The translations under genes and the position numbers were made by a program. The notes under the pieces are model-generated. The model did no database searches and was not told the origin of the DNA. It worked only from the letters and a program-made list of their open reading frames with translations. Source: Deltaproteobacteria bacterium (GTDB taxonomy: Bacteria; Myxococcota_A; UBA796; UBA9615). Taken from it: DNA of 42,056 nucleotides. This document shows positions 22,511 to 35,333 of this stretch, piece by piece. Numbering within the stretch: the stretch's first letter is position 1; each line of letters begins with the position of its first letter. The stretch spans positions 1-42,056 of the forward strand of contig JAGSHC010000023.1 in the NCBI GenBank assembly GCA_023954745.1, read 5' to 3'.

Positions 22511-25500
22511 TCAAGGGGCGTCGGGAACACCCTCCCACCGCGAGCGGACCCGCGAGACGAGCTCCTCACGCTCGGCATCGACCACCGACAAGTCCCACAG
22601 CTTCAGGGTCCGGTCCCAGCTCCCGGTGGCGAGACGCTCTCCATCTGGGGACGGCGCCATCCCCGAAACACGCCGGGAGTGAGCGGCAATCTGCAGTCGC
22701 AGGATCGCGTCCGGCATGGAGTACACCTCCACGGTGCCGTCACTCGTGCCGAGGAACAGCCGCTGCCCCTGGGAGTCGAGCCGAATGTTGCCCGCGCGAG
22801 GGCGGGGAATCAGCAGGCGGGCGGAGGCGTCCGGCTCCCTCGCCCCCCGAACCATGACTCCTTCCCGGCTCGTGTAGTAGAGCGTCTCGCCATCGTTGGT
22901 CACCACCACCGACCGCACCCCGCTCGGGCTCGGGAGGGCTTCGAAGCGCGGCGGGGCCCCGTCGATGGCGAGATACAGGTCTCCGAGCCGCCCCAAGACC
23001 GCGGCGTGGGTGCCGTCGCCGGACACCTCCGCGGAGAGTGGCTGCCACCCCGGAATGGCCCCCCCCGGGATCTCCTCGCCGTCAGGGCCCATCAGGTAGG
23101 GGCTCACCAATCCAACCTCGAAGGAGAAGCGGTGTCCGCTCGCCAGCAGGTAGATCGTGTTTGCGCTCGGGAGGACCCGCGACGCCTTCCCCTTCTCCAC
23201 TCGCAGAAGGCCTACTCCACGTCCGGCCAGGAGCAGCGCGCCGTCGGGAGTCCACGCGACGGATCGGAGTTCGGGCGGAGGATTGACGGAGAGATCCGGG
23301 GCAAGGTCCGCGAGATTCAGCCGCGTGGAGAGCGCGCCGTCGTCCGAGAGCACCAGCAGGGCCTCGGCCACTGCGGCGATGCCCTCGGCCCCCCATGCGA
23401 CGTCAAACAGCCCGTTTGGCAGGGTGCGGCGCGCCCAGCGTGTGGGGGCGGGCACCTCCCAACGCTCGAGTCGCCCGGTACGTCCCACCAAGAGGGTGCC
23501 ATCGGGCATGAAGCCAAGGCGTCGGACTTCGCCCGGGAGCCGATAGCGAAGGTCCGGATGCTCTCGAGGGATGACCCAACCCCGGCCTGTGGTGTCCATG
23601 GCAGCGAGCAGGGCTCCATCGTCCGAGATCGTGACCTGGCGGATCATTCGCTCGCTGAGCTCGATGCTGACGACGCGCCGCCCCTCCTGGAGATCGGAGA
23701 GCACGAGGTCTCCCTCCACTCCCCCCGTGAGCAGCCAACGCCCCGCGGGGTCCGCGACCCCCGTCCACGCGATGGAGTCTCGTTCCAGGGGCGGGAGCAC
23801 CTGCGTCTCGGTCCCATCGACGGCTCGCCGCACCGTGCGACCGCCGCTGCAGATGATCACGTACTCGCCCTCTCGGACGAGCTCCCCGGCCCACTCGAGG
23901 CCGCCCCCCCCACAAGGCACGATGTTCTCGACCTCTCTTCCCGCGAGCGCCGTCGCGGTGAAGAAGCGCTGGTCACGTCCGTTCTGGAGCGAGACGTGTC
24001 GCCTGGGGAACCGGGAGAATCCACGGCGACCGGATACGGAGACCCGCGTGCCGTCGAGACGGTCGCTGGCACCGGTGCGAGCATCCAACATCAACCAGCG
24101 GTGGGAGCCCTCGTTGTAGGCGAGGACCTTGCTGCCGTCGGGGTCCAGGGAGTGGAGCGACGTCGCCACGGGGAGCCGCCAGCGCTCGGTGCCGTCGAAG
24201 TCGTGAGCCAACAGCTGATCGCGCCCCACACACAGAACGAACTCGCCCGTCACGCTGAGGAGGCTGCGCTGGCAGACGGGGGTAGGGACCGAGGTGAGGA
24301 GCCTCGGGGTCGCGTCCAGACCATGGGCAGCGAGGACGCCCCGCGCTCCGGGGTGTTCCCCCCGCTCCAGAGCATCCGCCGCGAGGGACTCTGCGAGGGT
24401 TCGGTTTCCATCGGCCGACGCCTGCCGGGCCTGGAGCACCAGGGCGTCCTGCACGATCCGCTCGTCGACCCCGCCCGGGACCGGGTCGTGCGACCCGAAC
24501 CAGTCCCCCGCTCCTGCTCCCACCACCAACGCCGCCAACAAGGCAGCACCCCGTGGCCAGAGCCGCGTGGGCGTCGCCTTCCCCGGCATCTCCCGGCGCC
24601 CCTCGAACCACCCTTCGAGGGCAAGGGCCATCTCCCCTGCGTCGGCGTACCGATCCGCGGGGTCGCGGGCCAGGGCTCGGTCCACGATCGTGACGAGTCC
24701 TGGGTCGACCTCCGGGACGAGGACCGAGAGCGACGTGCGAGAGCCGCTGAGGATCTGCGCGATCATCTCGCGCTGGCTGGGTCCTCGGAACGGGCGCTGC
24801 CCGGCGAGGATCTCGTACAGCACCGCGCCCAGGGCCCAGACATCGAGGCCCGGACCCACCTCTTCGCCGCTCGCCTGCTCGGGGCTCATGTAGGCCGGCG
24901 TCCCCAGGACAGCCCCCAAGCGGGTCTTGAAGTCCTTGCTGACCACCGCATCCCACTCGTCCTCATCGAGAGTCCGCGCGAGGCCCCAATCCATGACCTG
25001 AGTCTCGCCCCAAGGGCCGACGAGGATGTTGTCGGGCTTGATGTCGCGGTGCACCACGTTGGCTGCATGGGCGAACGCGATGGCTTCCACCGCCGCGAGG
25101 AACCCCCGCAGGAGGTGTTCGCGCTCCTCGTAGGACGAGCGCGCCTCGATCGCCTCGCCGAGGGACTGCCCCCGCACGAGCCGCATCACGTAGTAGGGGC
25201 GCCCGTCGGCGTCCTCGCCCAGATCGTAGACGGGCACGACTCCGGGGTGATCCAGGGCCGCCGTGATCCGCGCTTCGCGCCGTAGCCGCTGCGCCTCGGG
25301 GCCATCGGGGGCTCCCAGGGCCTCCTTCACCGCCACTTCACGACGCAGCACGCGGTCGTCTGCGGAGACGACGCGCCCCATGCCGCCCTCACCCAGGAGG
25401 GCCCGTTCGCGGTAGCGAGGGTCCTCGGTCACCGGCGCCCAAGCGCCGCTCGAGCCGTACCATTCGCCGCTCGGCAGCTGGCCCGGGCGCGCACCTCGAT

Positions 25501-25519
25501 CGTCTTCCTCGTCCGCCAC
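22511..25519 (-). CDS. Hanks-type Ser/Thr kinase with extracytoplasmic beta-propeller sensor
   Basis: A 1002-residue membrane kinase. Kinase domain ~35-300: G43-E-G-G-M-G loop, VAVK with Lys65, catalytic H157-R-D159 in HRDIKPDN, D177-W-G in place of DFG (common in bacterial kinases), and GTPAYMSPEQ in the activation/APE region. A single transmembrane helix follows (GAALLAALVVGAGAGDWF, about residue 330). The outer ~650 residues look like a repeated propeller with blades such as SVAWTPDGALLLAGRG, ending in a true WD40 unit (VSGMAPSPDGERLATGSWDR, then TLKLWDL). GTG start, weak AGG ribosome-binding site. It is the first gene of a kinase-FHA-SGNH operon, divergent from ubiB with 64 nt between. 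Confidence 0.92.
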   Translation of the reverse strand: MADEEDDRGARPGQLPSGEWYGSSGAWAPVTEDPRYRERALLGEGGMGRVVSADDRVLRREVAVKEALGAPDGPEAQRLRREARITAALDHPGVVPVYDLGEDADGRPYYVMRLVRGQSLGEAIEARSSYEEREHLLRGFLAAVEAIAFAHAANVVHRDIKPDNILVGPWGETQVMDWGLARTLDEDEWDAVVSKDFKTRLGAVLGTPAYMSPEQASGEEVGPGLDVWALGAVLYEILAGQRPFRGPSQREMIAQILSGSRTSLSVLVPEVDPGLVTIVDRALARDPADRYADAGEMALALEGWFEGRREMPGKATPTRLWPRGAALLAALVVGAGAGDWFGSHDPVPGGVDERIVQDALVLQARQASADGNRTLAESLAADALERGEHPGARGVLAAHGLDATPRLLTSVPTPVCQRSLLSVTGEFVLCVGRDQLLAHDFDGTERWRLPVATSLHSLDPDGSKVLAYNEGSHRWLMLDARTGASDRLDGTRVSVSGRRGFSRFPRRHVSLQNGRDQRFFTATALAGREVENIVPCGGGGLEWAGELVREGEYVIICSGGRTVRRAVDGTETQVLPPLERDSIAWTGVADPAGRWLLTGGVEGDLVLSDLQEGRRVVSIELSERMIRQVTISDDGALLAAMDTTGRGWVIPREHPDLRYRLPGEVRRLGFMPDGTLLVGRTGRLERWEVPAPTRWARRTLPNGLFDVAWGAEGIAAVAEALLVLSDDGALSTRLNLADLAPDLSVNPPPELRSVAWTPDGALLLAGRGVGLLRVEKGKASRVLPSANTIYLLASGHRFSFEVGLVSPYLMGPDGEEIPGGAIPGWQPLSAEVSGDGTHAAVLGRLGDLYLAIDGAPPRFEALPSPSGVRSVVVTNDGETLYYTSREGVMVRGAREPDASARLLIPRPRAGNIRLDSQGQRLFLGTSDGTVEVYSMPDAILRLQIAAHSRRVSGMAPSPDGERLATGSWDRTLKLWDLSVVDAEREELVSRVRSRWEGVPDAP

Positions 25520-25583: not shown

Positions 25584-27266
25584 GTGCCCATCGTCCGCAC
25601 CGCCGCCCGCACTGCCCTGGGAGCCCGACAGGTCGTCAAGGACCTCGGACGCCTCCAGGAGATCGCGCAGATCCTCGCTGGCCACGGCTTTGGTTGGGTC
25701 GTCGCCAACATCGAGGTTCCCGGCGTGGGGCTGCTCCGACGGTTCACCGGCGAGGAAGGCCGCACGGAGACGACCCCCGCGCGCGTGACGAACGTGATCA
25801 AGGCTCTCGGGCCGACGTTCGTGAAGCTCGGCCAGGTGCTGAGCACCCGCAGCGACCTGATCCCCCGGGAGTACGCCCTCGCCCTCCAGGAGCTCCAGGA
25901 CCAGGCCGGGCCGGTGCCCTACGAGGACATCGAGGCGGCCATCGAGGCCGCTCTGGGAGGCAAGCCCGACGACATCTTCGCCAGCTTTGACCGGGAGCCT
26001 CTCGCCGCTGCCTCCATCGCGCAGGTGCACCGCGCCCAGATGAAGACCGGCGAGGAGGTCGTCCTCAAGGTCCAGCGCCCCAATGTGCGCCAGCGGATCG
26101 AGACCGACATGTCGATCCTGGGCTTCCTCGCGCGGCAAGCCGAGGCACAGGCCCCCGAGGTCAAGGCGGCGAACCTCTCGGGCATCCTCAAGGAGCTGAA
26201 CAAGACCATCGCTCGCAGCACCGACTTTCGATACGAAGCGGACAACATCCACCTCTTCGCGCGGAACTTCGAGGGCAACCCCGACGTCGTGATCCCCAAG
26301 GTCTTCGAGCCGTTCAGCAAGGCGACCGTGATCACCATGGACTTCCTGGACGGCGTGCGACTCTCGGACGCCCGCGAGGCGGGCTGCGACATGGCGCTCG
26401 TCGGTCAGCGATTCCTGGGCTCGGCGTTCCAGATGCTGCTCCACGACGGCGTCTTCCACGCCGACCTGCATCACGGCAACGCGATGGTCCTGCCGGGCAA
26501 TCGCCTGGGGCTCATCGACTTCGGGGAGATCGGCCGTCTCACGGACGAGATGCGGGAGAACATCACCACGCTGTTCTTCGCCATCAACCGCCGGGACTTC
26601 CGCACCATCGCCCGCATCCTGTGGGAGATCGCCGTCCGCCCTGGCCACGTCGACTACTCCGGCTGGGAAGCGGACGTGCAGGAGGTCGTGGAGGAGGAGT
26701 TGGCAGGCAAGGCCATGGGCAACATCGCCGTGGACCAGCTCATCGGCCGCCTGATGGAAGGCGCGATGCGCCACGGCGTGCAGGTCCCAGCGAGCTACAC
26801 CGTCTACTTCAAGGCCCTGATCACGGCCCAGGGCGTCGCCCACGAGCTCATCCCCGAGGTCGATCCACTGGAAGAGATGATGCCGTACGTGCAGGAGATG
26901 GCTCGCCGGCTGTACTCGCGGGAGCGGCTCCAGGAGGAGCTCTTCTACTACATCACGAGCTTCCGCTACTCAGCGAAGCGCCTGCCCCTCGTGCTCAGCC
27001 AGCTGCTGCAGGACGTCCAGGACGGGCGCCTCCGCATGCGCTCGATCATCGAGACGAGCGACCAGGAGCGGGCAGAGCGCGAACGCCAGATCAACCGGCT
27101 CGTCCAAGCGGTGCTGGTCTGCGGGCTGCTCATCGCCAGCAGCCTCGGTCTGCACGCGACCGGCGTCCCGATGCTCCTCGGAATGCCGGCGCCGGCGACG
27201 GTCGGCTACTTGCTGGCCTTTGGCCTCGGTGGCCTGGTCAGCTGGCGAGTCTTCCGCAGCGGCTGA
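25584..27266 (+). CDS. ubiB: ABC1/UbiB family atypical kinase/ATPase
   Basis: A 560-residue membrane-bound atypical kinase. Family marks in order: GPTFVKLGQVLSTRSDLIP (K-x-G-Q), LAAASIAQVH (Ala-rich loop replacing the Gly loop), VVLKVQRP (ATP Lys), FHADLHHGNAM (catalytic loop) and LIDFGEIG (metal-binding DFG). Two hydrophobic helices end the protein (VLVCGLLIASSLGLH and VGYLLAFGLGGLVSW). UbiB helps ubiquinone or related isoprenoid-lipid synthesis, likely by extracting lipid precursors from the membrane; its substrate is not settled. The window also holds coq4, although far away. The GTG start appears leaderless. Its 3' end overlaps the convergent gene by 61 nt. No other quinone-synthesis gene is adjacent. 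Confidence 0.93.
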   Translation: MPIVRTAARTALGARQVVKDLGRLQEIAQILAGHGFGWVVANIEVPGVGLLRRFTGEEGRTETTPARVTNVIKALGPTFVKLGQVLSTRSDLIPREYALALQELQDQAGPVPYEDIEAAIEAALGGKPDDIFASFDREPLAAASIAQVHRAQMKTGEEVVLKVQRPNVRQRIETDMSILGFLARQAEAQAPEVKAANLSGILKELNKTIARSTDFRYEADNIHLFARNFEGNPDVVIPKVFEPFSKATVITMDFLDGVRLSDAREAGCDMALVGQRFLGSAFQMLLHDGVFHADLHHGNAMVLPGNRLGLIDFGEIGRLTDEMRENITTLFFAINRRDFRTIARILWEIAVRPGHVDYSGWEADVQEVVEEELAGKAMGNIAVDQLIGRLMEGAMRHGVQVPASYTVYFKALITAQGVAHELIPEVDPLEEMMPYVQEMARRLYSRERLQEELFYYITSFRYSAKRLPLVLSQLLQDVQDGRLRMRSIIETSDQERAERERQINRLVQAVLVCGLLIASSLGLHATGVPMLLGMPAPATVGYLLAFGLGGLVSWRVFRSG

Positions 27267-28699
27267 AGGGTCAGCGTGCTCTGGAGTAGCGCCGCGAGGC
27301 TGTCGAAGGCCTGCGTCGACTGGCTGGTCTTGACGTTGGGCGCCGCGAGCCAACGCACCACGAGGCTGCACACCTCATAGGCCAGCGTGGGATCCGCCTC
27401 GAGACGCGAGATGAACTCTTCGCGAGGCAGCGTGTAGACCATCGCCCCCGAGCCGCCGACCACGACGCTGATCTCGTGCCGCTCGGGCTGGGGCCCCCGA
27501 CGAAGGGTGCCCTCGTCTGCGCCGCGCACCCCGGTCCCCGGCGGAGTCCCGTTGCGCCCCCGCCCCTTGCTGCCGGAGACCATGGGGTCATCCAGCGGAA
27601 GGAGAGCGCTCCAGAAGCCCGTCAACTGGAGTCGGTGCCCTCCGGGAGGGAGCAGCGCTCCGTCCGCTCGCAGGCTGGCCTCGAGCTGGGCCAGCTCCTC
27701 GTGCATCTCCTCGGTCGTCGAGAGGAGCGAGAGCTCCACGGGGCCCCGCGCCCGGAGGAGCTCACCCCACTCCACGAGGTAGACCGCGTCAGCGAATCCA
27801 CCGTACTGGTACAGCGGAGCGCCCGGCTCTCGCCAGCTGGGGCGGAGCCCTTCGGTCAGCTGACGGAATGCCCGCTCGGGCAAGCCGCGGTGGGCAGTCC
27901 CGGACGCCTTGCCGGGGGTGAGCCCGTAGACCACGGTCCCCACCGGTCGGGCTCGATGCTGAAGGACGAGCTCCCGCACCAGGCTGAGGCTCAGGTGTGC
28001 ATCCCGAGCCAGCTCCTCGTGGAACCGGCCCGCGTCGATCTCGCCGAGCGACACGGTCCCCTTCAGCCGAGCACGGAAGCGCGCAGTCCCCCCCGTGAGA
28101 GCAGCGACGGCGCCGATGACCTCGCCCGCCCGTGCCGTCCAGAGCGGGGTGTCTCCCCCGTCCAGGGGCAGGAGCTCCACCCGCCCGGCGGCGACGTAGA
28201 TCACCCGCTCCCGGTCCGTCTCGAAGACCTCCAGTTCCTCGTCGACGACATCGAAGGCGCTCTGCAGCGTCTGGTAGCGATGGTGCGTCCACGCGGCGTC
28301 GTCGGGGGGCACGGTGGCGGGCCCGGGGTCCGTGTCCTGGATGGTCTGGGTGGGCATGCCCCAGTCGTCTGCCAGGCGCTCCTCTCGTCCTCCATCGGCC
28401 AGCAGACGGGCGTGGCGCAGGAAGGGACTCCCCACCACGGGCGCACGCACGCTCTGCTTCACGAGCGCCCGCATGGCGTCCCGGGCGAGCTCCCGTCGCG
28501 CCAGGCGCCGGTGCAGGTTCGGCCCCCCCAGCTCCTGGATCATCTCCAGGTGGCGAAACCAGCCGCGCAGGGCGATCGCGTCCTCGCGGCGACCTTCCGT
28601 CCAGAGAACCTGGAGGGCCGCATCCCGAAGGTGCTTGTAGATGAACGAGATCCGGGTGGGACCCTCGCCTCGGTCCGGGACCCCGGAAGGAATCGTCAT
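27206..28699 (-). CDS. Protein with cyclic-nucleotide-binding-like domains, frame-disrupted at its 5' end
   Basis: The conservative start is ATG at 28699 (497 residues), but coding character (GC-rich third positions) continues in this frame to about 28775, so the true start is uncertain. Residues about 1-140 are helical and unassigned (YKHLRDAALQVLWTEGRRED). Two segments resemble cyclic-nucleotide-binding/Crp folds: RVIYVAAGRVELLPLDGG, then AGEVIGAVAALTGG (about 165-255), and LYQYGGFADAVYLVEWGELL, then MVYTLPREEFISRLEAD (about 290-445). No DNA-binding helix follows, so it is not a Crp regulator. The 3' end overlaps ubiB by 61 nt on the opposite strand. Upstream is an out-of-frame kinase N-lobe (see next entry). 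Function unknown. Confidence 0.65.
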   Translation of the reverse strand: MTIPSGVPDRGEGPTRISFIYKHLRDAALQVLWTEGRREDAIALRGWFRHLEMIQELGGPNLHRRLARRELARDAMRALVKQSVRAPVVGSPFLRHARLLADGGREERLADDWGMPTQTIQDTDPGPATVPPDDAAWTHHRYQTLQSAFDVVDEELEVFETDRERVIYVAAGRVELLPLDGGDTPLWTARAGEVIGAVAALTGGTARFRARLKGTVSLGEIDAGRFHEELARDAHLSLSLVRELVLQHRARPVGTVVYGLTPGKASGTAHRGLPERAFRQLTEGLRPSWREPGAPLYQYGGFADAVYLVEWGELLRARGPVELSLLSTTEEMHEELAQLEASLRADGALLPPGGHRLQLTGFWSALLPLDDPMVSGSKGRGRNGTPPGTGVRGADEGTLRRGPQPERHEISVVVGGSGAMVYTLPREEFISRLEADPTLAYEVCSLVVRWLAAPNVKTSQSTQAFDSLAALLQSTLTLQPLRKTRQLTRPPRPKASK

Positions 28700-28998: not shown

Positions 28999-31900
28999 CT
29001 AGAGCTTACCGAACGGAATCTTCTTCTTTCGCTCAGGAACGAAGCCTTCGAACACAGCTTTCATCAGGTCCATACCCGCCTTCTTTTCATCGCGGCTGGG
29101 GAACTTGATGGGGCTGGTGTGGACGAGGAGCCAGGCGTCCTCCTTGCCGGAGTAGCGGAAGAACTTGAGGTGGGGCTTGTGGTCGCCCTCGTAGCAAACC
29201 CAGAGCCACTCGGGCGCGCCCTTGGCGTAGGCCTGCTCGAACTGGCCGTAGAAGTTGCCCATCTTGTCGAGGGCAGGCTCGCCGTAGATACGGACCACGC
29301 CGACACCGTCGGCCTCCGCCCACATCATCACCTCTTCCTCTTCGTCCTCGAAGAAGACCGTCTCGGGCAGGTTGTCCCAGTCGAACTCGGCCACCGACTC
29401 GGGCTCCGGCTTCTTCTTCTTCTTCGGCGGGGGCTCGTCTTCCTCGTCGGCGGCGATGTCCTCGTCGTCCAGGTCGAGGTCCTCGTCGTCGAGCTCGAGG
29501 TCCTCGTCGTCTGCCTCGCGCTCGTCGGCCTCGGCCTTGCGCTTCTTGTCCTCGTCGGCCTTGCGCTGCTTGTCTTCCTCAGCGCGGCGGTCATCGTCGG
29601 CCTTGCGCTTCTTGTCGGCCTTGCGCTTGTCGTCGTCGCGGCGACGGCGCTCTTCCTCGGCCTGCTCGCGCTCTTCGTCTTCACGACGCTTCTCCGCCTC
29701 GGCGCGCTCGCGCTTCTGCTCTTCCTTGCGGCGCTTCGCTTCTTCGTCGCGCTGCCGCTCCTCTTCTTCGACCTCCGCCTCTTCGTCGATGGCGTCGAAG
29801 TCGAACTCGTCTTCGTCCTCGTAGCGGTCGGCGCGACGCACGACGTCGCGGTCGTCGTCGTCATCCTCGTTCTTTGCAGCGAGGGCGGCGACCTCGTCGT
29901 CCTCGTCCACGGCCACGCGCTGGCGGCGGCCACGGCGGCCTCCACCTTCGGGCTCGTTGTCCACGATCTCCTTCGCGAACACGCGCAGCGTGCCCTTCTG
30001 GGAGGACTTGACCCCGGAGGGGTGCGAGATCTGGACGGAGTAGGTGCCGTCTCCCGCCGGCAGGTCCTCGGGCACGTCGAGGTCGACTTCGAGCTCGTGG
30101 AAGCCGATGTTGCGGGTCATGTTGAACTGGTCGACCTTCTCGGTCCCGTCGACTGAGTACTTCACGTCCACCGTCAGAGCCACGTCGTCTTCGACGCTCC
30201 AGCCGCCCACCGCCATGTCCATGAGCAGCACCGCCTCCTCGCCGGGAAGCACGACGGAGGGGTCGAGCTCGATGCGCTTGAGATCCAGGGCGCTGCCCAG
30301 GTGCACGAACTCCTCACGCTCACCCCGCAGGGGCACGCCGTCGAGCTCGAGGCTCGTCAAGACCCGGTACGAACCGAGCTGCGCAGCGGAGGTGTAGCTG
30401 GAAGGCACCTTGAGCCAGGTCGTCGTCTCGTTTTCACCCACCGCGGGGGTCTTCGACGTGCTCTTGACGGCGAAGTCCTTGATGGGGTTGCCCGAGCGGT
30501 CGTAGGCCTGCGCCACCACCTGGATCTTGTGTCCTTCGGCCTTGCCTTCCACGTCGTACTTGACCTTGACCTGCACGCTCTTGCCGGCGCGCGTAGCCAG
30601 GTAGGGCTTGCCTTCGGTCCTGGCACCCACGGCAACATCCATCAGCCGGACGTCGATGGGTGCGTTGGCCTGGGCGATGCGCGCCTCTTCACGCTTGCGC
30701 TCGTCCTCGGCCTTGCGAGCCTCCTCACGCTTGCGCGCTGCCTCGGCCTGACGCTTCTCCTCGGCGCGAGCTCGGTCCGCTTCGGACTTCGCCGCCTCTT
30801 CCTTGCGGCGCTCCTCTTCGACCCGCTGGCGCTCCTTCTCGGAGAGGCCGGCGTTCTCGCGCTCAGCGAGCTTGTCGGCCTTCTCGGCCTCCGCCTCGGC
30901 GACGGCATCGCCCATCTCGAGCGCGCGCGTCTCGCCACCGAACAGCTCTCCGACCTCGACGGACGTGGCCTCGCCGGAGTAGCTGAGGGTGTAGACCGGG
31001 TCGAACCAGTCCATGTCGTCAGGGCGCAACGACCTCTCGAAGCGACGCCACCAAGAGACCAGATCGTCCTTGTATGCCATGACCTTGAAGGGTCGGTCGC
31101 TGTCGTCGTCCTCGTTCTCCACCGCCCGCAAGGGCCAGTGGTTCGGGTTCTTGGCCAGGCCTTCCACGGCGCGGGCATCGTTCCCGTTGAGCTCGCGCAC
31201 CCAGCGGCCCGCGGTCTTCTCGATGATGCGGCGCGAGATGGCCCGCTCACCGTTCTCGAGGGCCTCGCCCGAGACCCAGCGGTCGAGGTGGCCCAGGTAG
31301 AACTTGATGTCGCCTTCGCGGTCGAAGAAAGGAACCTCGCCCTTCTGTACGGCCGTGGCGAAGAACTCGGGAGACGTGCCCACGTAGAGGTGAGCGGCGT
31401 CGAAGTCGACCATCAGCGGCGTGTAGAAGTAGACGAAGCCGAACACCTCAGCGACCTCGTCGCCCCGCTCGGTCTCGGCGTTCACCGTGATCGTGGACAC
31501 GCCGTAGCGGGTGGGGTGCTTGATCTTCTTGGTCTCCCACTCCCAGTCCTCGACGTACTCGCCGCGCAGCTCCTTGAGCGCCTCGCCGCGCTCGATCTCC
31601 GCGGCGCGGGTGCGGTAGCGGGCGGACGTCAGCACATCCTTGACGTACTCACCGGACTCCTGGGGCCACGGAAGAGCACGGTCGGCAGCGATGTAGTCCC
31701 GGTCGACGAGCTTCTCGACGGAGCGGATGTTCTTCTCCATCTCGTCGCCTTCGTCGTCGACGGAGCGGCCCTTGTACTTGACCCAGGCGCCCTCGCCTCG
31801 ATCCGGCAGAGAGCTGAGCCTCGGCAAGCGCACGTCGCCGCCGGTCCAGTTGTCCGGACGGGACTTGAGACCCACGGACTCGATCTCGGGGTCGTCGTCG

Positions 31901-32418
31901 GCCTCGTCCACGAACCAGCCGGTGACCACGCGGAACTTGTTGGCCTCGGTGTGCGAGACGAGTCCCGGATCCGGTCCGATCAGCACGGGGGCTGCGAAGT
32001 TGATGAAGCCCTGGCCACGGTCGCCCGGCGTCTCCCAGACGATGCGTACGGCCGGGTCGTCGGGGCCGGCGATGAGGTACTCCTCCAGGTTGAGGAGGGT
32101 GCCTCGAAGCGACTCCACCGGTCGGTCGGACTCCATGGCGTCCTCGAGCGCCGGACCGATCTGATCCTCCCAGAACTCGAGCGACGGAGCGCGCACCACG
32201 TAGAGCCCCGAGAGGATGCGGTAGCGGTTGGCGCTCTTGATGCCGGACTTGAGGACGCGACGCTCGATCTTGTTGGCGGTCAACTCGTCCTTGACCAGCA
32301 GGCCGCGCACTTCGATCTGTCGGTCGCGAGCCGTGACCGGGTTCGCCACACACAACGCCAAGAGGGCGAGGAGGGAGACGAGCCAGCGGCGCGAGGTGGG
32401 GGAGGGAGTTCTCATCAT
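28999..32418 (-). CDS. Large exported protein with two charged helical segments, no family recognised
   Basis: An 1139-residue secreted protein. A signal peptide (WLVSLLALLALCVANPVTA) is followed by a ~470-residue region with no known fold to me. About residues 505-590 are a Glu/Lys/Arg/Ala-rich coiled-coil-like helix (RVEEERRKEEAAKSEADRAR). Next come two beta-rich, Ig-like segments of about 100 residues each (KPYLATRAGKSVQVKVKYDV; EEAVLLMDMAVGGWSVEDDV). About 875-1005 is a second, extremely charged segment rich in K, R, D and E, ending DDEDLELDDEDLDLDDEDIA and five lysines. A C-terminal ~120-residue domain with aromatic patches follows (WLWVCYEGDHKPHLKFFRYS). ATGATG follows immediately after the M16 stop TAG, with GAGGAA upstream, so it is operonic with the peptidases. 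Possibly an envelope scaffold or protease substrate. Confidence 0.8.
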   Translation of the reverse strand: MMRTPSPTSRRWLVSLLALLALCVANPVTARDRQIEVRGLLVKDELTANKIERRVLKSGIKSANRYRILSGLYVVRAPSLEFWEDQIGPALEDAMESDRPVESLRGTLLNLEEYLIAGPDDPAVRIVWETPGDRGQGFINFAAPVLIGPDPGLVSHTEANKFRVVTGWFVDEADDDPEIESVGLKSRPDNWTGGDVRLPRLSSLPDRGEGAWVKYKGRSVDDEGDEMEKNIRSVEKLVDRDYIAADRALPWPQESGEYVKDVLTSARYRTRAAEIERGEALKELRGEYVEDWEWETKKIKHPTRYGVSTITVNAETERGDEVAEVFGFVYFYTPLMVDFDAAHLYVGTSPEFFATAVQKGEVPFFDREGDIKFYLGHLDRWVSGEALENGERAISRRIIEKTAGRWVRELNGNDARAVEGLAKNPNHWPLRAVENEDDDSDRPFKVMAYKDDLVSWWRRFERSLRPDDMDWFDPVYTLSYSGEATSVEVGELFGGETRALEMGDAVAEAEAEKADKLAERENAGLSEKERQRVEEERRKEEAAKSEADRARAEEKRQAEAARKREEARKAEDERKREEARIAQANAPIDVRLMDVAVGARTEGKPYLATRAGKSVQVKVKYDVEGKAEGHKIQVVAQAYDRSGNPIKDFAVKSTSKTPAVGENETTTWLKVPSSYTSAAQLGSYRVLTSLELDGVPLRGEREEFVHLGSALDLKRIELDPSVVLPGEEAVLLMDMAVGGWSVEDDVALTVDVKYSVDGTEKVDQFNMTRNIGFHELEVDLDVPEDLPAGDGTYSVQISHPSGVKSSQKGTLRVFAKEIVDNEPEGGGRRGRRQRVAVDEDDEVAALAAKNEDDDDDRDVVRRADRYEDEDEFDFDAIDEEAEVEEEERQRDEEAKRRKEEQKRERAEAEKRREDEEREQAEEERRRRDDDKRKADKKRKADDDRRAEEDKQRKADEDKKRKAEADEREADDEDLELDDEDLDLDDEDIAADEEDEPPPKKKKKPEPESVAEFDWDNLPETVFFEDEEEEVMMWAEADGVGVVRIYGEPALDKMGNFYGQFEQAYAKGAPEWLWVCYEGDHKPHLKFFRYSGKEDAWLLVHTSPIKFPSRDEKKAGMDLMKAVFEGFVPERKKKIPFGKL

Positions 32419-33948
32419 CTATTCCTCGAGGAGGTTCCCTTCGTCGTCGACGGCCACGATGGCGCCAAGACCGAGATCCTCTACTGCAGGACCGGCTACG
32501 GCGCGATCTCCGACCACGAGGATCATGAGGTCGTCGCCGCTGACCACCTCGGCGTAGGCCGCCTGAGCCTGCTCGCGGGTGATGGCGGCGATGCGGGCGC
32601 TCTTGCCCTGCAAGTGGCCTTCGGGGTAGCCGAGGGCGTCGGCGGTGGCGAACTGGCTGAGGACCGAGGCCATGCGCTCGTAGGAGCCCGGCTCAGCCTG
32701 AACCATGGCGCCCACGCTGCGCCCGTGCTCCTCGTCGGTGATGGGGACATCGCCGAGAGCGCCCCGGATCTCCTTGAGGAACTCCGTGATGGACGCTGCG
32801 GTGACATCAGCCCGGACGGAGGACGTGGCTGCGAAGTAGCCGCCCTGGCGGTAGGCGCGGAAGCCCGACCGGGCGCCGTAGGTGTAGCCCTTGTCCTCGC
32901 GCAGGTTCATGTTGATGCGCGCGGTGAAGTTGCCGCCGATGGGGTGGTTGCCCAGGATCCGCAGATCGTGGGTCGCCGGGTCGAAGGCGGGCGCAGCGTT
33001 GCCGAGCAGGAGGAAGGACTGCGACGCGCCAGGCTTGTCTACCCAGTAGACGGTCACTCCCTTTTGGGGCTCCACCGGAGCCACTTCGACGACCGGCGCC
33101 TTGCTCTTCGGGTCCGCGGCCCAGGTCCCAACCGTGGCGTCGAGGATGGGCTTCAGGGTCGCCTCGTCCATGCGAGTCACCACCACGAGGGAGGTGTTCG
33201 CCGGAGCCCAGTCGTTCATGTGCCACTTGACGACGTCGCCGCGGGTGAGGGCACTCAGCGACTCCTCATTGCCTCCGCCGGGGCGACCGATGTAGGAGTC
33301 ACCGAAGACCAGCTTCTTGCCGACGCGGGTTCCGACGGTGGGCAGGTCGTCCTTGCTCGAGAGCAGGCTGCGCTTGCGGTCCTCGATCACCCGGTCCAGG
33401 TCTGCCTGGGCGAGCGTGGGGGACCCGAGCATCGAGAGCACCAGCTCCAGAGTGGGCTCGAGCTTGTCCTCGAGAGAGTTGATGCGCACCACGTTGTTGT
33501 CGAGGGACGCCCCGAGGCTGACATCCGAGGCCAGCCGCTGCAGGGCCTGCTCGAGGTCCAGGGCGTTCATCTCGCCCGCGCCTTCGTTGAGCATGTCGGC
33601 GGTGACGGCAGCGAGGCCCTCCTTGCCGACGGGGTCAGCGGCGGACCCAGCGCCCACGTGTAGCCGCATCTCCACGAGGGGCACGGCGCCGGTGGTGACG
33701 AGGGTCACGGGGATGCCGTTGGCCAGCGTGAAGCTCGTGGACTCGGGGACCGAGAACTCGGGGGCGGGGCCGGGAGTCGGCATCGCGGGCCAGGCAGCTT
33801 CGGCGGGAGCAGCCGCTTCAGCGACGGCCTCGGCGGCAGCAGCGTCGGCGGTGCCGGACGTCTTGGCGTTGGGGCCCCAGCAGCAACCGGCGAGGGCGAG
33901 GGAGGCGCTGACGGACAGCACCGTGGTCAGAAGCGCGCGGGCGTTCAC
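32419..33948 (-). CDS. M16-family peptidase-like lipoprotein, catalytic site lost
   Basis: A 509-residue lipoprotein (VSASLALAGC lipobox) with an Ala-rich linker to about residue 60 and two M16 (insulinase-fold) modules. Where active members have H-x-x-E-H, this one reads GKEGLAAVTADMLNEG with no histidine, so it cannot bind zinc. RPGGGNEESLSALTRGDVV and WAPANTSLVVVTRMDE are the usual M16 landmarks. It is the non-catalytic partner expected in two-chain bacterial M16 proteases and in mitochondrial MPP. The GTG start overlaps the active subunit's stop as GTGA, ensuring equal synthesis. The next gene begins right after its TAG. Confidence 0.9.
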   Translation of the reverse strand: MNARALLTTVLSVSASLALAGCCWGPNAKTSGTADAAAAEAVAEAAAPAEAAWPAMPTPGPAPEFSVPESTSFTLANGIPVTLVTTGAVPLVEMRLHVGAGSAADPVGKEGLAAVTADMLNEGAGEMNALDLEQALQRLASDVSLGASLDNNVVRINSLEDKLEPTLELVLSMLGSPTLAQADLDRVIEDRKRSLLSSKDDLPTVGTRVGKKLVFGDSYIGRPGGGNEESLSALTRGDVVKWHMNDWAPANTSLVVVTRMDEATLKPILDATVGTWAADPKSKAPVVEVAPVEPQKGVTVYWVDKPGASQSFLLLGNAAPAFDPATHDLRILGNHPIGGNFTARINMNLREDKGYTYGARSGFRAYRQGGYFAATSSVRADVTAASITEFLKEIRGALGDVPITDEEHGRSVGAMVQAEPGSYERMASVLSQFATADALGYPEGHLQGKSARIAAITREQAQAAYAEVVSGDDLMILVVGDRAVAGPAVEDLGLGAIVAVDDEGNLLEE

Positions 33949-35333
33949 TGGGCACCTCCTTCAGAGCCGCCACCATCGGTCGGAGCTTCCTCCTCCGGGG
34001 CCGGCCGTACGATGAGCTCGATGCGCTTGCTGTCGTCGAGCACCGCGTTGGTCCACTTCGACAGACTCTCCTGCGTCACGCCCGTGTAGCGGTTCAGGTC
34101 CTGCTGGGCCCAGTCGGGCTCCCCGAGGTAGCCGTTGTACATGTGCAGCATGGAGCCGCGACCGGCCACGGACTCGAGGCGCTGGTAGAAGCTCTTCTGC
34201 CAGGAGTTCGTCGCCCGCTCGAGCTCGTCGGCGGTGGCGCCGTCCTTCTTCAGGCGGTCAATCTCCTCCTGAAGGGCGGCCTGAACCTCTTCCACGGTGT
34301 GCCCGGGGGCGACGGTGGCGTAGAGGATGTAGCGGCTGCCGAGGCGGGCGCTGGCCTGGAAGGCAGCGACGTCCTTGGCGATGCGGTCCTCGAAGACGAG
34401 GCGCTTGTAGAGGCGGGAGTTCTTGCCGTCGCTCAGGATGCCGGAGAGCACGTCGAGGTCGGCGTCGCCGTCGGTAAAGAAGGCGGGGCTGCCCCACGCC
34501 CAGTAGACGCGCGGGAGCTGGACCTCATCGGTGATCTCGATGGTCTTCGCTTCGATGACACCTGGGTCGGCCTCGGTGACGGGGCTCGGCTGCTCGCCCT
34601 TCGGAATGGGCCCGAAGTACTGCTCGATCCAGCCCTTCACCTCGGCCTTGTCGAAGGAACCGGCCACCACGAGCGTGGCGTTGTTGGGCACGTACCACTG
34701 GGTGAAGAAGCCCTTCACGTCGGCGAGGGTCGCGGCCTCGAGGTCCTCGTGGGAGCCGATGGTGGTGTGCTCGTAGGGATGGTCCGTGGGGAACATCTCC
34801 TCGCTGAGGTACACCCAGACTTCACCGTAAGGCGTGATCTCGTAGCGCTGGCGCCGCTCGTTGCGCACGACCTCGCGCTGGTTGTCGAGCTTCTGCTGGG
34901 TCAGGGCCGGAAGGAGGAAGCCCATGCGGTCGGCCTCCATCCAGAGGGCCAGCTCGACGCCGTTGGTGGGCAGGGTCTCGTAGTAGTTGGTGCGGTCGCC
35001 GTTGGTGGAGCCGTTGATCCGGGCGCCGAGGGGCTGAAGGGGCGCGAAGTACTCGCCATCGGCGTGCTCGCTGCCGTTGAACATCAGATGCTCGAAGAGG
35101 TGCGCGAAGCCGGAGCGCCCCTTGACTTCGTCCTTGCTGCCTACGTGGTACCAGAGCTCGACGTGGGCGATGGGGGTCGCGTCGTCCTCGTGCAGGATGA
35201 CCTGCAGACCGTTCTCCAGCTCGTACTCCTCATGGGGAATGGAGATGGTGGGCTCGGCCAGGGCCGGTCCAGCGACGACTGCGGCGCAGAGCGCGGCCGA
35301 CAGGGTGGTTCGCACAACGAAGGAATGGTTCAT
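33945..35333 (-). CDS. M16-family zinc metalloprotease, catalytic subunit
   Basis: A 462-residue exported protease. The start at 35333 gives a signal peptide (FVVRTTLSAALCAAVVAGPALA) and GAGGA 7 nt upstream. Zinc ligands are H78-L-F-E-H82 with Glu81 as catalytic base, and Glu159 in NQREVVRNERRQ as third ligand, 77 residues after His82 as in pitrilysin. NNATLVVAGSFDKAEVKGWI closes the first module; the second, inactive module ends at SKRIELIVRP. M16 proteases degrade unfolded peptides inside a clamshell. Here the partner clam half is the adjacent lipoprotein, so the pair is probably tethered to the envelope, facing the periplasm. Ala-Gln end. Confidence 0.95.
   Translation of the reverse strand: MNHSFVVRTTLSAALCAAVVAGPALAEPTISIPHEEYELENGLQVILHEDDATPIAHVELWYHVGSKDEVKGRSGFAHLFEHLMFNGSEHADGEYFAPLQPLGARINGSTNGDRTNYYETLPTNGVELALWMEADRMGFLLPALTQQKLDNQREVVRNERRQRYEITPYGEVWVYLSEEMFPTDHPYEHTTIGSHEDLEAATLADVKGFFTQWYVPNNATLVVAGSFDKAEVKGWIEQYFGPIPKGEQPSPVTEADPGVIEAKTIEITDEVQLPRVYWAWGSPAFFTDGDADLDVLSGILSDGKNSRLYKRLVFEDRIAKDVAAFQASARLGSRYILYATVAPGHTVEEVQAALQEEIDRLKKDGATADELERATNSWQKSFYQRLESVAGRGSMLHMYNGYLGEPDWAQQDLNRYTGVTQESLSKWTNAVLDDSKRIELIVRPAPEEEAPTDGGGSEGGAQ

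Follow-up and report, generated by a model that had tools for sequence, protein, structure and literature searches.

M16 pairs are heterodimeric clam-shell peptidases in which a dead half completes the active site. The bacterial heterodimers of subfamily M16B are defined by HxxEH and a distal Glu in one subunit, and an R/Y pair has been described for the M16 half opposite the active site (PMC12731061). In the best matching described type, SPH2681/SPH2682 (3amj), and also in TTHA1264/TTHA1265, the active (HxxEH) and the dead subunits are adjacent. Some M16 pairs, e.g., MPP and AlbF/AlbE, are known to process precursors, and the physiological substrates and partners of the bacterial pairs are poorly defined (PMC12731061). 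In a narrow search of the open-licence literature, we came across no description of an M16 pair with a third partner. A genetically locked partner, if true, would offer a handle on how an M16 peptidase is positioned or fed.

The three-gene run and its M16 pair

In the window, i.e., the whole 42,056-nt stretch of DNA that was analysed, we found three consecutive frames that code for an M16 pair (M16A and M16B) and a large protein that we refer to as BIG.

35333-28999, minus strand: three-gene run M16A-M16B-BIG
33945..35333, minus strand: M16A, 462 aa, exported active-type zinc peptidase of subfamily M16B (Pfam, solved chains, invariant columns)
33945..33948, minus strand: GTGA start/stop overlap of M16A and M16B (direct sequence)
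32419..33948, minus strand: M16B, 509-aa lipoprotein, catalytically dead partner (Pfam, solved chains, alignment with M16A)
28999..32418, minus strand: BIG, 1139-aa exported modular protein, with ATGATG immediately downstream of the M16B stop codon

The M16A/M16B junction reads ...CCAGTGAACG (the GTGA overlap) and the M16B/BIG junction ...GAATAGATGATGAGA (TAG, then ATGATG), so that frames and junction sequences bear out the three-gene operon, with its GTGA coupling and stop-ATGATG, proposed in the initial annotation. All three gene products carry export signals.

M16A matched the Pfam families Peptidase_M16 (5e-17) and M16_C (9e-35), both well above cut-off, and its closest solved chains were 4nnz and 3amj_C (“zinc peptidase active subunit”). 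Its H78-L-F-E81-H82 motif and the downstream E159 are invariant in six relatives. M16B is also above both Pfam cut-offs, Peptidase_M16 and M16_C (5e-17 for M16_C), with 3gwb and 3amj_B (“zinc peptidase inactive subunit”) as closest solved chains. In its alignment with M16A no HxxEH was found, the corresponding position reading AAVTADML, and R350 and Y357, in the segment LREDKGYTYG, occupy the positions of the Arg and Tyr in 3amj_B and 3gwb. The lipobox of M16B is LAGC, and lipoprotein status was common to the family rows aligned. Thus the marks of a heterodimeric zinc peptidase of the M16B subfamily (SPH2681/2682, MPP type) are divided between the two genes, HxxEH and the distal Glu lying in M16A and the R/Y pair in a same-fold partner that lacks HxxEH, M16B; the Pfam matches, the motif present in one and missing from the other, and the lipobox agree with the active M16 protein and dead M16 lipoprotein reported before. 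From this we infer that M16A and M16B probably form a heterodimeric clam-shell peptidase on a membrane. An identity with YfmF/YfmH, which are associated with EF-P modification, was rejected on the NCBIfam cut-offs (58 vs 250 bits for YfmH and 30 vs 285 for YfmF).

The pair itself is ordinary and widespread. A second M16 gene follows M16A in 78 of the 80 best-matching named loci, which come from many phyla; among these same 80, an ilvE-like gene was present in three and BIG in none.

A large exported protein outside known families

The layout of BIG, which starts with a Sec-type signal (direct reading), was drawn from alignments and two AlphaFold2 runs.

30910..32328, minus strand: N-domain, residues 31-503, containing an HTH_17-like segment (AlphaFold2 model)
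30667..30909, minus strand: charged helical linker, residues 504-584 (composition, charge periodicity)
29956..30666, minus strand: two tandem Ig/FnIII-like beta-sandwich domains, residues 585-821 (AlphaFold2, Foldseek, profile)
29341..29955, minus strand: low-complexity charged linker, residues 822-1026, with a putative single alpha-helix of ~95 residues (876-970) and an acidic/PPPKKKKK tract
29002..29340, minus strand: C-terminal alpha/beta domain (C-domain), residues 1027-1139, ending ..FGKL (alignment)

The frame is coding, because the same domains are present in six genomes and because the Ka/Ks values against the nearest relative were 0.2–0.3/0.6–0.8 over the three structured regions. The N-domain was modelled with confidence (pLDDT 86, pTM 0.88) and the Ig pair mostly above 90 pLDDT, the C-domain at only ~65. 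Inside the exported N-domain (residues ~326-388, window ~31255-31443, minus strand) there is an HTH_17-like segment of excisionase type, predicted as strand-helix-helix-strand-strand-helix; of 13 such segments in the family, 7 matched PF12728 at E<=1, the best value (5e-5) coming from a protein other than BIG itself.

The 81-aa linker contains 28% K+R and 32% D+E, and the 205-aa linker 24% and 44%, respectively, the latter holding a poly-acid and then a PPPKKKKK tract. Large hydrophobics make up only 2% of the long helix, where opposite charges are enriched at i+3/i+4 (z 3.2/3.6), and the first linker is 6% hydrophobic with opposite-charge enrichment at i+3 (z 5.0). This composition suggests ER/K-type spacers, each a single alpha-helix, and a coiled-coil reading was rejected on the 2–6% hydrophobics together with the i+3/i+4 charge pattern. 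The exported 1139-residue protein with Ig-like segments, two charged helices and a poly-acid then poly-Lys tract is therefore as initially annotated. In the family alignments both heads (the N- and C-domains) and the Ig pair stand out as conserved domains, and the linkers differ in length. Lys-rich tandem repeats, e.g., KKAAKP and KAKKEP, occur in the second linker of three orthologues (L065, L064 and L066). The same linker is the break point of three assemblies (G001, G002 and G003), whose contigs end inside its repeats; in all three the C-terminal part of BIG is found again where a different contig ends, beside a UbiB-like gene.

Long charged linkers of variable length between folded domains would be accessible sites, and BIG might then be a dedicated substrate or precursor of the M16 pair, cut probably within them, much as MPP and AlbF/AlbE process their precursors (PMC12731061). 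The linker sequences, however, are not conserved, and many M16 chambers favour short peptides. We consider this explanation improbable.

BIG belongs to no known family. It had no Pfam match at E<=0.1 and no NCBIfam match, and the N-domain had no match in the PDB at E<=0.001 by Foldseek, the matches listed having TM <=0.15. Profiles of the N-domain and C-domain gave only chance-level matches to PDB sequences, and a conserved-peptide scan of the genome contigs with BIG gave none. The top Foldseek matches of the N-domain were serpins, a likeness that we discarded (TM ~0.1, rmsd >20 A), and BIG is not an AgmX/PglI-tail protein either, since neither myxo_SS_tail nor any other NCBIfam model matched it. 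Only the Ig pair had clear structural matches, the best to RbmA (4kkq, 1.9e-9), whose tandem FnIII domains are likewise two consecutive beta-sandwiches; at 13% identity and a target TM of 0.35 this is a generic fold likeness from which no function is inferred. A known family with an unrelated role, which would have spoken against the initial annotation, did not come up in the HMM and structure searches. Although modelled with confidence, the N-domain fold has no significant counterpart in solved structures, and the protein family that carries it was found in one bacterial lineage only.

Distribution, paralogues and flanking genes

When 331 genomes of the phylum were searched with profiles, the Ig pair was found in six and the C-domain in five, all of a single GTDB family; in the sixth genome of the family, G004, the contig stops before the C-domain. 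Strong matches to the N-domain were also confined to this family, and none of the BIG domains had a convincing match outside it among the 331 genomes. Weak matches throughout the phylum, mostly to N-domain residues ~304-394, were rejected as BIG homologues: they are mostly short or interrupted frames with a general HTH_17-like similarity, and one of them (L112) looks like an excisionase-type HTH.

The family sample consists of six genomes, all draft assemblies. M16A-M16B-BIG was present in all six, on a single contig in five; in G004 it is split inside M16B, and two contigs carry M16A-M16B and M16B-BIG. The N-domains share 41–66% identity across the six. The end of M16B and the start of BIG overlap or nearly do so in at least five of them (4-bp overlaps in G003, G004 and G005, a spacing of 6 bp in G001). 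The linkage claimed for the locus hence holds in all six genomes, with no tendency of the orthologues to occur away from M16 genes. In the one genome of a sister family in the order (G006), an FHA-like gene is divergent from M16A-M16B and BIG is missing. In the rest of the class, an ilvE-like gene lies 6–107 bases after the M16B match in 15 of the 20 loci read. This M16A-M16B-ilvE order is frequent in the class (L081-L094, L097), and the combination of a peptidase pair with an aminotransferase gene is curious in its own right. The M16 pair being widespread and BIG restricted to one lineage, BIG therefore looks like a late addition.

Paralogues of the N-domain were detected in G000 (three), G001, G004 and G005, seven of which could be aligned, plus fragments; none were found in G002 and G003. 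They had no M16 neighbours in the stretches read. In several an Ig-like segment comes after the N-domain and the tail is AgmX/PglI or TonB-like, the NCBIfam model myxo_SS_tail scoring above cut-off in one paralogue and below it in another. The C-domain and Ig-pair profiles of BIG do not pick them up. In an unrooted maximum-likelihood tree, the six M16-linked proteins and the seven unlinked ones fall on opposite sides of a branch with 100/100 support, which is compatible with one joining event. The paralogues also bear on the idea that BIG is a regulator of the protease, its N-domain serving to block or open the clam shell, as inhibitor or gate. Coupled starts imply coordinated expression and the N-domain has no recognisable enzyme family, as such a regulator might. 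However, the same domain occurs in proteins without M16 neighbours, and the serpin matches that would have suggested an inhibitor are not fold matches (Foldseek TM ~0.1), so that we regard regulation as very unlikely.

The genomes of the family also keep the genes around the operon, an FHA-GAF-HD gene upstream and UbiB-like, RseP-like, rplU, rpmA and obg genes downstream (names partly from direct sequence reading), the BIG C-terminus lying close to the UbiB-like gene in G001, G002, G003 and G005. In the window, a minus-strand gene with a weak cyclic-nucleotide-binding match (27206-28699) stands between BIG and the UbiB-like gene, and another (22511-25519, minus strand) codes for a Ser/Thr kinase fused to WD40 repeats; neither had a counterpart in the family loci read. 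Since the flanking order is conserved too, there is little rearrangement in this region and adjacency on its own says little; for the same reason linkage is no proof of a complex. The initial annotation had taken tight linkage as a sign that BIG is a substrate, scaffold or adaptor of the protease. The linkage stood in all six genomes; the role did not follow from it, given the conserved flanks and the M16-free paralogues of the N-domain.

BIG may be a structural protein of the envelope or surface that is merely co-transcribed with the M16 pair and, like the paralogues, has a function of its own. The seven aligned paralogues, several with AgmX/PglI or TonB-like tails, speak for this, as do the synteny beyond the operon and the fact that ilvE, an unrelated metabolic gene, is the usual third gene in the rest of the class. 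On the other hand, the M16-linked BIGs are one group and adjoin M16B in 6/6 genomes, their starts overlapping it or nearly so; their C-domain and Ig pair are private to them, and the profiles of both miss the paralogues. Independent function with co-expression is, in our estimate, nearly as likely as a scaffold or adaptor. In that case, the locus would offer hardly more than a new orphan protein family.

A tentative role and its relation to known systems

The explanation that we favour, although at somewhat less than even chances, is that BIG serves the anchored protease as a scaffold or adaptor in the envelope. It builds on features read from the sequence, i.e., gene order, coupled starts, export signals, active and dead residues and domain layout. 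M16A and M16B would be a periplasmic clam-shell zinc endopeptidase that the lipid anchor of M16B holds on a membrane. BIG, which belongs to a family of modular exported proteins specific to the lineage, would have been added to the 3' end of the operon a single time, in an ancestor common to one bacterial family. Single alpha-helix rods would keep its heads and the Ig-like middle apart, and its domains could capture envelope polypeptides, present them, or position the protease. The physical contact between BIG and the protease, and with it a presenting or positioning role, we infer.

Consistent with such a scaffold or adaptor are the gene order kept in all family genomes with overlapping or nearly overlapping starts, the position of the M16-linked BIGs on one side of the 100/100 branch, and the pair without BIG in the sister family (G006). 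The three exported products, one of them a lipoprotein (M16B), the matches to active and inactive subunits, and the conservation of heads and Ig pair over linkers of variable length point in the same direction. Against it, adjacency may be inertia, the flanking genes being syntenic too, the N-domain has paralogues without M16 neighbours, and most bacteria have the M16 pair without BIG. The most specific version, in which BIG is a dedicated accessory subunit of a type for which we came across no description, a lineage-specific scaffold of new fold and with single-helix rods that brings protein substrates to the lipid-anchored peptidase in the envelope, we consider doubtful.

Three known arrangements can be compared with this locus. 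The AgmX/PglI (myxo_SS_tail) paralogues share with BIG the N-domain (22–27% identity), the following Ig-like segment and the export signal; they differ in having no M16 neighbours, a tail domain in place of the private C-domain, and other linkers. In the M16A-M16B-ilvE order of the class the M16 pair is a close relative and is likewise followed by a tightly packed third gene, but that gene is branched-chain aminotransferase-like (named from sequence) and BIG is absent. The SPH2681/SPH2682 type is the nearest to the pair itself, with chain-by-chain sequence matches, active and dead genes side by side and the Arg...Tyr segment kept in the dead subunit. What sets the present operon apart from this type is an extra, coupled third gene that codes for a large exported protein and, perhaps, the lipobox of the dead subunit. 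The two-part zinc protease is common in bacteria; in one family of uncultured bacteria it appears to have gained this third gene, whose product matches no known family, and to have kept it.
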